A stretch of DNA of 27,077 nt from a virus, in IMG/VR virus record IMGVR_UViG_3300034152_000302, positions 1 to 27,077 of that record; one strand, given 5' to 3'. How positions within the stretch are numbered: position 1 is the stretch's first letter; the number at the start of each line of letters is the position of its first letter. Shown piece after piece: positions 20,447-24,036 of this stretch. The notes beneath the pieces were generated by a model that worked only from the letters and a program-made list of their open reading frames with translations, ran no database searches and was not told where the DNA came from. Position numbers and translations under genes: made by a program.

Positions 20447-21659
20447 CTTTCTTCTCTCCTTCGGCCCAGTAGGCCACTTCGTTATACGCATCGAAGTTAA
20501 TAACCTTCAGCACTACGAGAGTCTGAATAACCCTTCGGATCTCCTCCATCGTGTAGTCACTCTGGTAGCGCTCTACAATCTGGCGAATGCTGGCCACTTG
20601 AGTTAGCGCCATCCAGCTTTTCATGTCCTCCTGTGCGGCGGAAAGTGGGTTCAATCCGACACCGGAGTATGTCCGCGCCATCTTGACTTCCGTCTGCTTA
20701 AGCAAGGCGATTGCATCGTGTAGGTCTTCGAGCGTAATAACCATGTTGTTCCGTCTAGCCGCACTGAAGACCATAGCAAGCTTAATAACGTGACCGGGCC
20801 TGCGCCCTTTATACCACTCGAGCTTAGGATGTTTCGGGTCCCAGGATTCGCTTTCTATGCGGAACTGGTAGTAAGCATCCTGCACACCAGGTCCGTTACG
20901 GAAGACTCCGCTCATCGTGCGGAGCTGTTGTAGGTCACTAACCAGTTCCTGCTCAATTATGCGGAGGGTTTTTAGTAAATCTTCTATCTCCTTCTCGTCC
21001 CTAATTTCATTAGGCACACCGGGAACTACTACAACCCGCCCTTTGTCTTCTTCGTAGACGAAGATCGTCCGGCTGGCGAAGCCACCACCAACCGTTTCTT
21101 CCGGCAAGCTACTACGCAGAAGCGATGGAGTGGTGGCGCCTAGCAGGTTTACCCACACGCTGTTGAGTGTCTCCTCCCCTCTGCCGACAGTCTTATATTT
21201 GAAGACCGACGGGCAGTCAAACCAATCGCACAGGTAGCTGAGCAGATCCTGCTGGTTATAGCCCAAGAAGACTGTTAGCTCCGGTGCATTGATATTTATG
21301 GTTGCGTTGAACTGCGTCGCTCCGCGATCATCTATGCTCATCTCCGTGTCAGTCTTCATCTGGTCAACAAGGGCCTGAACCGTTGCGCGACTCGGGGCGT
21401 AGAGAATTCCCGCCTTGTCACCCAGTAACCTTCCGAGGGCCATAGCCGTGCCTTTGCGTGCTGCCGGAGGGCCAACTAGGACAATGTAAAAGTTAGGGTA
21501 GAAAACCACTTGACCTAGCTGATAACAGCACCGGCGTCCGAGAGCAGCTGCAATGGTGTTAACAGCTACCCACTTGCGGTATAGCTCTGGAGGCTCAGTA
21601 CAAACGGTCCAGTCTGTGAACCCTTCAATCCAGTCCTCCAGCTTCCGCTTGAGTTCCAC
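20343..21659 (-). CDS. DUF3987/YfjI-type P-loop ATPase, probable replicative helicase (438 aa)
   Basis: The N-terminus has the pattern 'PPELYRKWVAVNTIAAALGR' (about residues 23-42), followed by a beta-strand and the nucleotide loop GPPAARKGT (63-71). The loop has RKGT where a textbook Walker A would have GK-S/T; DUF3987 proteins often show this kind of RKS/RKG variant. A later segment WVNLLGATTPSLLRSSLP fits sensor-type motifs. These proteins act as helicases or primase partners in phages. The gene follows the DNA polymerase with a 35-base overlap and starts at GTG 21659 after GGGAGG. The C-terminal 35 residues are charged and disordered and overlap the next gene. Confidence 0.7.
   Translation of the reverse strand: MELKRKLEDWIEGFTDWTVCTEPPELYRKWVAVNTIAAALGRRCCYQLGQVVFYPNFYIVLVGPPAARKGTAMALGRLLGDKAGILYAPSRATVQALVDQMKTDTEMSIDDRGATQFNATININAPELTVFLGYNQQDLLSYLCDWFDCPSVFKYKTVGRGEETLNSVWVNLLGATTPSLLRSSLPEETVGGGFASRTIFVYEEDKGRVVVVPGVPNEIRDEKEIEDLLKTLRIIEQELVSDLQQLRTMSGVFRNGPGVQDAYYQFRIESESWDPKHPKLEWYKGRRPGHVIKLAMVFSAARRNNMVITLEDLHDAIALLKQTEVKMARTYSGVGLNPLSAAQEDMKSWMALTQVASIRQIVERYQSDYTMEEIRRVIQTLVVLKVINFDAYNEVAYWAEGEKKDEPRQRGADPPRPKESGEDNGAGHSGSWDNKPVD
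20456..20460 (-). promoter_or_regulatory. Shine-Dalgarno that fixes the start of the 214-residue gene
   Basis: AGGAG on the minus strand, nine bases before ATG 20446 (spacer AGAAGAAAG). The more upstream in-frame ATG lacks such a site. Confidence 0.6.
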
Positions 21660-24036
21660 CAGTGGTTTCCTCCCATTTCTGGAGCATGTCAGCCAGCGCC
21701 AGCTCGGCTACACCGTCGAGCTGTTTTGCCTTTAGCTCCAGCATCTGATCTTCGTCGAGGTTGTAGCCTACCTTCGTATCGACCGGCACGTTGAAGGTCA
21801 TACCGCCAACTGTGAGAGGCTGCTCCAGATTCCTCTTGGCGGCGAGAATTACGTCAGCGATGTAATGCCAACCAGCTGCCCGAGGTATTTGAAAGATCAC
21901 GCTGTCGTGGACGGTGTTGAGTAGTTCAACCTCCTTGAACAGGTCTTGGCGTTCGTAGATGTAGCGAAAGCCCCACTGATTCATCATTTCAGCCACAGTG
22001 GACTGTGGGATGTAGGAGTAGGCTTCCTTAAACAGTGCATCTCCCCAGTGTTCCATGAATGTGCGCCTACGCCCGAACAGGTTTGTTAGGGTGCGGGTGC
22101 GGCCTAGTTCATGTTGGATTGTCGAGTGCCACTGTCGAACACCAGGGTAGATAGAGTGATACCGCTCTACGAGGAAAGACGCTTCCGCTTCAGGGATCTG
22201 GTAATAAAGTGCGAAGGACTTGTAGCCCAGATCGTAGTTCAGCCCGTGGTTAGCCCGCTTGCCCCAGGAACGCTGCTCTAGTGTGACCTCTTCTATATCT
22301 ACGCCATAGATCATAGCTGCCGTCTGCCTATGAATGTCGATGCCTGTCTCGAAGGCGTTGATCATCTTAGGCTCGGGAGCTATATACCCAACAACGCGGT
22401 TTTCAGCTTGAGACAGATCCATGCTGATGACGATGTGTCCGTCGTCAGCCAACATAAGCTTCTTCATGTCAGAAGGTTGATTTTGCAGATTTCCCCCGGT
22501 TCCAAAAATTGTCTTAGAAGAGCTGATGCGTCCTTGCTTAGTACCAACCGGATTGAAAGAGCACCGTAGTCTTCCGTCAGTGTCCAGTTGCATTGTATAG
22601 TAAGTTCCACGGAGCTTAGAGATGTGTCTGAGTTCGAGGATGACTTCGGCCTCCCGGATACCTTTGGCTGCCATCCGCTTGAGGGCTTTGTCGTCGGTAG
22701 TGACGGAGCCCCTTCGGGTGTATTTGTGTAGGCCGAGGGTTCCGTAGAAGTATTTCTTAAGTTGGGGCACGGAGCGCCAGTTGAAGCTGGCATCTCCCAC
22801 GATGTCGGTGAGTTGCCTCTCAAGCATTGCAATGCGTTCCTCCGCGTCTTTAGCTGCAGTCGTTAGACCTTCCGTGTTCATTCTAATACCACGCTCACCA
22901 ATGAATACGAGAGGTTCGAGTAATCCCTTCTGGCGCTCGTAGGCGTCCCAGTTCCCAGTTGTCTTCAGGTCCTGGATTTGCTTAGGCCATATTTCCGCCA
23001 CAATAGCGCTGTCCATAGCGCTATAACGACGGAAGGCTGCCTCGCCGTCGCTATAGCGGAACCACTCCTTCCCCTCGTCCTTATAGTAAGGCTCTCCCTC
23101 ACAGTACATGGACTGGATAAAGTCAAGCCCTTTCGGAAAGTCCGGGAAGATTATGGCTTGCGCAATCATGGTGTCGTGGAGAGGCCGGGAGCGAATACCG
23201 AACTTGCGAAAGAGAAAAGTTGCGTCAAACGACAAGTTTTGGCCTACCTTCGGGACGTTCGTGTCTTCGAGTAAGCCAGCTATCTCCCGCCAAATTTGTG
23301 CCTCCTGGTCTGGGGTGAAATAGTTCTTCCCGCCAAAGAGAAAGGGGATAGAGATAGCGCGGCTGGCATGTGGAGAGAGGGAGAGGTGTGAGACTTCTCC
23401 CCGTGTTACTTCGATGTCGTAAGCTACCGCATCGTGGCCGCCTCGGCGACAGTCCTCTATGAAGTCTATCGTTTCTCGATAGCTGGGCTCCGTGAGTAGC
23501 TCCCGATCCAACAAGTTTATCTCTTCCGTAAAGCTCTGGTCTACGATCCTTCTTAGGTCGTGCGCGATAAGGTGTGTGTCCAGATACGTGCGTAGGGCCG
23601 CACTCGGATGGATGATGGGAATAACCTTGCGCCCAGGCAACAAGGTGCTTTTCAAGATGGAGCCTCTCCGCTTCGTAATGGCCCGCTGGCCCGTGAGCGC
23701 ATAGAGGGCTGTTCCGCCAACGGCTACCAGGACATTGGCAGTGCAAGCTTTAAGGCGTTGCTTGAGAGCGGCTACATTCTCACGGTAGCAAGCGTTTTCC
23801 ACTACGTATTTCTTGGAGAGGTCCAGCCAGGGTGTAACATCGTTCCCCGGCGGGCGCTCTTGAAAGACGTTGTCGATATAGCAAGCACTACGCTCTATCC
23901 CTACACGGTCGAGCAGGCGTATGAACAGCTGCCCAGCCCGTCCGACGAAGGGTCTTTGCATACGCTCTTCTGTCTCACCAGGGGCTTCCCCGATGAAAGC
24001 TATTCGACAGTCTAGTGGTCCTTCGTAGTAAGGCAT
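21625..24036 (-). CDS. UDG-exonuclease-family A DNA polymerase fusion (803 aa)
   Basis: The start ATG 24036 follows AGAGGAG; a longer frame to 24126 lacks support and would overlap the upstream gene. Residues 10-165 form a uracil-DNA glycosylase-like domain with GEAPG (16-20), RPFVGRAGQL, RPPGN and HPSAALR (143-149). The 3'-5' exonuclease has Exo I DIE (D207, E209), Exo II with N267 and D271, and Exo III Y338/D342. The polymerase has motif A DLSQAE (D540-E545), motif B with R589, K593, N596, H597, G598 and Y601, and motif C HDS (710-712). H597 stands where E. coli Pol I has Phe762, and S712 replaces the usual Glu of HDE. It is the phage replicase; the UDG domain probably senses or removes uracil. 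Confidence 0.9.
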   Translation of the reverse strand: MPYYEGPLDCRIAFIGEAPGETEERMQRPFVGRAGQLFIRLLDRVGIERSACYIDNVFQERPPGNDVTPWLDLSKKYVVENACYRENVAALKQRLKACTANVLVAVGGTALYALTGQRAITKRRGSILKSTLLPGRKVIPIIHPSAALRTYLDTHLIAHDLRRIVDQSFTEEINLLDRELLTEPSYRETIDFIEDCRRGGHDAVAYDIEVTRGEVSHLSLSPHASRAISIPFLFGGKNYFTPDQEAQIWREIAGLLEDTNVPKVGQNLSFDATFLFRKFGIRSRPLHDTMIAQAIIFPDFPKGLDFIQSMYCEGEPYYKDEGKEWFRYSDGEAAFRRYSAMDSAIVAEIWPKQIQDLKTTGNWDAYERQKGLLEPLVFIGERGIRMNTEGLTTAAKDAEERIAMLERQLTDIVGDASFNWRSVPQLKKYFYGTLGLHKYTRRGSVTTDDKALKRMAAKGIREAEVILELRHISKLRGTYYTMQLDTDGRLRCSFNPVGTKQGRISSSKTIFGTGGNLQNQPSDMKKLMLADDGHIVISMDLSQAENRVVGYIAPEPKMINAFETGIDIHRQTAAMIYGVDIEEVTLEQRSWGKRANHGLNYDLGYKSFALYYQIPEAEASFLVERYHSIYPGVRQWHSTIQHELGRTRTLTNLFGRRRTFMEHWGDALFKEAYSYIPQSTVAEMMNQWGFRYIYERQDLFKEVELLNTVHDSVIFQIPRAAGWHYIADVILAAKRNLEQPLTVGGMTFNVPVDTKVGYNLDEDQMLELKAKQLDGVAELALADMLQKWEETTGGTQAEAGGLD

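Follow-up and report, generated by a model that had tools for sequence, protein, structure and literature searches.

Does a histidine at the residue that governs nucleotide choice in a phage DNA polymerase, together with several other departures from the E. coli active site, mark an enzyme adapted to unusual substrates, or is it the inherited signature of a larger group of viral polymerases? The question is raised by a gene in a viral stretch of 27,077 bases (hereafter, the window), which is a complete IMG/VR record and itself a fragment of a tailed phage: its plus strand carries the terminase, portal, major head and internal virion genes, and its minus strand the replication genes. A preliminary description had proposed that this combination of residues alters the speed, fidelity or substrate use of the enzyme, possibly to match a modified nucleotide pool. 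Among the plus-strand genes, positions 14737-20055 encode a 1772-aa internal virion protein (phrog_6651) that includes the sequence GHEATHRLIEL, whose HExxH pattern may be a metalloprotease-like motif.

The gene is an open frame without internal stop and has the following layout (numbers in parentheses after residues and motifs are those of E. coli polA, NC_000913.3).

21625..24036, minus strand: fusion of a uracil-DNA glycosylase (UDG), a 3'-5' exonuclease and a family A DNA polymerase, 803 aa, His762 class (translation, domain searches, AlphaFold2 model)
24042..24048, minus strand: AGAGGAG, ribosome-binding-site-like, 5 nt upstream of the ATG at 24036 (read directly)
23584..24024, minus strand: UDG superfamily domain, aa 5-151 (PF03167, 72.2 bits vs. 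a gathering score of 24.3; residue counts; alignment to solved UDGs)
22984..23436, minus strand: 3'-5' exonuclease domain, aa 201-351, with D207-x-E209, D271, Y338 and D342 (PF01612; residues invariant or nearly so in the relatives' alignment)
21817..22869, minus strand: DNA polymerase family A domain, aa 390-740 (PF00476, 184 bits vs. a gathering score of 34.3; Klenow superposition)
22396..22419, minus strand: motif A, D540-L-S-Q-A-E-N-R547 (705-712) (E. coli alignment)
22231..22272, minus strand: motif B or O helix, R589 to D602, with His597 (762) at 22246-22248 and Asn600 (765) at 22237-22239
21901..21909, minus strand: motif C, H710-D711-S712 (881-883) (E. coli alignment)

The ATG at 24036 is likely the start of the gene, given the AGAGGAG upstream and the same start in relatives; a GTG at 24126 was rejected because the relatives begin at the ATG. 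The bacterial PolA equivalog model TIGR00593 gave 189 bits vs. the required 600. Both the UDG domain and Asn600, which are central to what follows, are present in the gene and were absent from the preliminary description.

The residues that had drawn attention to this gene were read correctly. Motif B aligns without gaps to that of E. coli (R754-RSAK758-AINF762-GLIY766-G767 vs. R589-SWGK593-RANH597-GLNY601-D602 in the window), placing H597 at Phe762 and D602 at Gly767; motif A carries Leu instead of Tyr at 706, and motif C ends in Ser while keeping its catalytic Asp, such that the catalytic Asp pair is intact. The equivalents of D705, K758, Y766 and D882 are D540, K593, Y601 and D711, respectively. 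An AlphaFold2 model built on a 61-sequence alignment (mean pLDDT 94.1) superposes on Klenow 1kfs over 555 residues (Z 33.8, rmsd 3.4 Å) and folds residues 586-599, including His597, into a single helix, the form expected of the O helix. Searches of BFVD and the PDB with the fold returned family A polymerases among the matches listed, a list filled by the polymerase domain in which the UDG part is barely covered. Compared to E. coli Pol I, with which it shares the fold and the catalytic core, the window polymerase differs at F762, G767, Y706 and HDE.

Scans of IMG/VR in which the protein and close alignments served as queries gave hundreds of relatives, two of these scans confirming at least 526 and at least 477. 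The counts below rest on 154 non-identical His762 polymerase domains among the matches listed; the sampling was seeded with relatives, and row frequencies are therefore not population frequencies. One scan selected rows by two patterns, one of which lies in motif B, and 67 of the 68 rows of that scan carrying the other pattern also had His. The core residues R668, D705, K758, Y766, Q849, H881 and D882 are near-universal in the His762 clade. Could the unusual residues nonetheless reflect a sequencing error or a degenerating gene? The closest relative among the matches listed (L002, 6001-8401) does have its polymerase split between two frames that overlap near residue 248, due to an assembly error or a frameshift. 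The window frame, however, is intact over its 803 aa, the pieces of this relative (80% identical) and a second one (L001, 61%) share the residues in question, and the core is invariant among relatives. Since 154 non-identical rows have His at position 762, neither sequencing error nor chance explains it, and we regard decay or error as extremely improbable.

The same rows show which of the accompanying changes are distinctive. The HDS of motif C and the DLSQAE of motif A had been taken as marks of an unusual enzyme, but both are ordinary here: motif C is HDS in 118, HDA in 19 and HDE in seven of the listed His762 rows (HDS or HDA in 137 of the 150 with data), and position 706 is Leu in 139/154. 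HDS as a rare loss is likewise rejected, since it is common in His762 rows and HDS/HDA also prevail in Phe762 rows (67 of 69 among the matches listed). In comparison scans seeded with phages of other classes, T7-like Tyr762 rows had HDE, the 34 rows obtained with the Phe762 polymerase of the actinophage Muddy all had HDA, and the Serbin seed gave HDA, HDE or HDS. The uniform HDA of the sampled Muddy-type Phe762 polymerases means that HDE is no general rule of viral PolA, and HDS, Leu706 and D767 are not alarming. Position 767 itself varies in the listed His762 rows (Asp 60, Gly 41, Leu 29, Arg 16). Position 765 is Asn in 140 of the 154 (His in seven, Asp in six) and polar in all but one; none of the 178 non-His rows listed (69 Phe, 77 Tyr and 32 Leu762) has Asn there. 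Tyr762 rows uniformly have Leu at this position, almost every Phe762 row has Leu, Val or Ile, and 30 of the 32 Leu762 rows have Gly. This coupled pair, Asn765 with His762, is picked out in the present analysis. At the steric-gate position, 710, 53/154 listed His762 rows have Asp, mainly those of a Microcystis-phage-like subclade; in the rows of the scan that cover this subclade (L132-L210), Glu710 is replaced by Asp in 48 of 50. R754 is replaced by Tyr in 26 of the 154.

His762 also occurs in deposited phages (Desulfofustis phage LS06-2018-MD01, Microcystis phage Mel-JY34 and Caulobacter phage Kuura) and in eight polymerase frames from contigs of metagenome-assembled genomes (MAGs) in GTDB. 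His762 polymerases at L293-L303 lie on contigs binned to Bacteroidales, WOR-3, Nanohaloarchaea, Paceibacterota and other MAGs; these are probably co-binned phage contigs, and the hosts are putative. In phage Kuura (L018, 4965-8369) the gene is split into a UDG part (4965-6074) and a polymerase (6687-8369) with two small ORFs between them.

To place the trait in its ancestry, we clustered polymerase domains at 80% and made a tree of the resulting 213 rows, from which columns 710, 762 and 883 had been removed. On this tree, the product of a quick search with some rows on long branches, the 126 His762 rows require two changes, which fits a single gain and a single loss, vs. 67 changes on average when labels were shuffled on the same tree. 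Among the rows sampled, a single Phe row (L099) falls within the close set, and another (L131, from a third scan) is distant. Judged from these sequences, the active-site combination is an inherited clade signature and not an adaptation peculiar to this virus. Hence, we consider it highly probable that the gene encodes a tailed phage's replicative polymerase, one of a large clade of phage PolA enzymes in whose ancestor position 762 became His.

The UDG fusion is found in 122 of 126 His762 representatives, whereas the 5' domain of E. coli Pol I is a flap nuclease. The window domain can be aligned to structurally solved family 4 UDGs, and its presumed catalytic residues E17, N56 and H143 are kept in 92-95% of 61 rows; it scored 90.7 bits with the family 4 model TIGR00758 vs. 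a cut-off of 125.3. The four Fe-S cysteines of family 4 UDGs are not present in the window domain, which lacks a CxxC before motif 1 and has Glu60 in place of the Cys of KCRPP. Of the 69 His762 rows scored, 68 lack both the CxxC pair and the KCRPP Cys, a loss shared across the sampled clade (the window and loci L028-L107), while 12 of 13 Phe762 UDG-PolA fusions have the CxxC. The latter fusions (e.g., Serratia phage Serbin, Pseudomonas phage PMBT14 and SPO1-like Bacillus phages) share the order UDG-exonuclease-PolA and HDA or HDS, but differ by Phe762, by other neighbours and by mostly keeping the CxxC and KCRP Fe-S cysteines (phi18 is without them). In the His762 clade the UDG domain may excise uracil without an Fe-S cluster, or it may be a module that binds uracil or DNA.

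The gene has the following neighbours.

20343..21659, minus strand: DUF3987 primase/helicase-like protein, next gene downstream (PF13148, phrog_14296)
25032..26369, minus strand: fusion of a ParB N-terminal domain and an N6/N4 DNA methyltransferase, upstream (PF02195, PF01555)
24012..24401, minus strand: DUF7768 or nucleoside 2-deoxyribosyltransferase-like (NDT-like) protein, no fixed cassette member (domain searches)

Most members of the clade lie in one cassette of ParB-methyltransferase, UDG-PolA and DUF3987 primase: the DUF3987 gene is immediately downstream in 112 of the 124 His762 loci with room for it, and of the 133 with room on the other side, 114 have the ParB-methyltransferase upstream. 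An association of 762 type with replication neighbours has been published (PMC6302109), and the present cassette is in keeping with it. The Walker A of the DUF3987 protein, GPPAARKGT, is atypical and is kept in L002.

Alternatively, the active site might be adapted to a modified pool, containing Z, hydroxymethyl-dU/dC, deazaguanine or dU. The UDG domain and the NDT-like neighbour hint at nucleotide chemistry, motif C of the phiVC8 polymerase DpoZ likewise reads HDS, and some Serratia and Pseudomonas UDG-PolA phages have thymidylate synthase and deaminase genes. However, in a search of 36 related phage records of 39-52 kb, none of the 36 has a thymidylate-synthase family (PF00303), PurZ family (PF00709) or QueC gene, the PurZ search having found its phiVC8 positive control. 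ThyX occurs in two of the 36, dUTPase in one and ribonucleotide reductase (RNR) in one, and the NDT-like gene in just five of them; among the His762 loci whose neighbours were compared, the NDT-like gene is present at four. The sole RNR carrier (L087) is also the record with the dUTPase and has one ThyX. DpoZ, also a family A phage polymerase, differs by Leu at 762, not His, and by its PurZ neighbour, and the window polymerase scores far below the DpoZ cut-offs (NF038380, 58.5 vs. 500 bits; NF038381, 54.4 vs. 350 bits), by which DpoZ identity was rejected. The cassette contains a single DNA-modification enzyme, the methyltransferase domain, and this would modify DNA once it has been synthesised. 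Based on these searches for genes of known pathways, and with the window being a fragment, the proposed link to a modified pool finds no support, and we judge it very improbable.

How would the inherited His762 active site work? The near-invariance of the core catalytic residues makes it very probable that the enzyme is an active DNA polymerase with proofreading. His597, facing the nucleotide from the O helix, would replace Phe/Tyr762 in stacking and positioning at the incoming dNTP's sugar, and its imidazole could form a hydrogen bond like the Tyr hydroxyl of T7 polymerase; Asn765 and the carboxylate at 710 might complete a polar network in place of an aromatic or hydrophobic one (Tyr706 being Leu), with HDS serving as one of the common viral substitutes for Glu883. 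The fused UDG would scan for or remove uracil near the polymerase, or be an extra DNA-binding module, and the enzyme would act in a fixed cassette with the ParB-methyltransferase and the DUF3987 primase. An analogy with human POLG Y955H, considered as a His762 counterpart, was dropped because Y951 is the nucleotide-stacking residue of POLG (PMC9307957) and Y955 corresponds to Y766.

Altered kinetics or fidelity are plausible. Specifically, His762 might change rate, fidelity and the acceptance of ddNTPs or ribonucleotides compared to Phe or Tyr, and have been selected for phage lifestyle or for a DUF3987-type replisome, a possibility to which we give somewhat less than an even chance and which extends the inherited-clade explanation rather than opposing it. 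The equivalent position in T7 polymerase, 526, has a strong effect on activity, of which 50% was lost with Y526F and 97% with Y526L (PMC13228545), and the co-changes at 765 and 706, with the E710D subclade, suggest a retuned dNTP pocket; yet such co-changes might just as well bring behaviour back to normal, as proposed for Leu762 clades (PMC13228545). A bolder version, that His762 and Asn765 define a class with its own cassette, an Fe-S-free UDG and a dNTP pocket that discriminates sugars or bases unlike all characterised family A enzymes, is one we put forward more tentatively still.

Finally, the His762 group bears on how viral polymerases are classified. The Phe762, Tyr762 and Leu762 classes (Nasko 2018, PMC6302109; Keown 2022, PMC9069017) have the same family A fold and motifs A, B and C, and in them, as in the His762 group, the 762 residue clusters by clade and replication neighbours. 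The combination of His762 and Asn765 is absent from both surveys, such that the residue lies outside the published viral classes, as the preliminary description had implied; these papers and PMC13228545 treat only Phe, Tyr and Leu at position 762, and the Keown 2022 screen retained only F, L or Y. Our search, which left most subscription journals outside, found no relevant literature on a His762 (H762) DNA polymerase and no assayed enzyme of the class, and we do not claim priority. With only Phe, Tyr and Leu762 recognised and all else discarded in one survey, His762 appears to be an overlooked, so far unnamed fourth 762 class. Position 762 serves as a marker of phage lifestyle in viromes, and with a His762 group this large, a screen limited to F, L and Y leaves out part of viral diversity. 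Further, phages with named hosts (Caulobacter phage Kuura and Microcystis phage Mel-JY34) carry His762, which makes the class testable, and its polymerases represent a natural enzyme set for testing how the O helix selects nucleotides.
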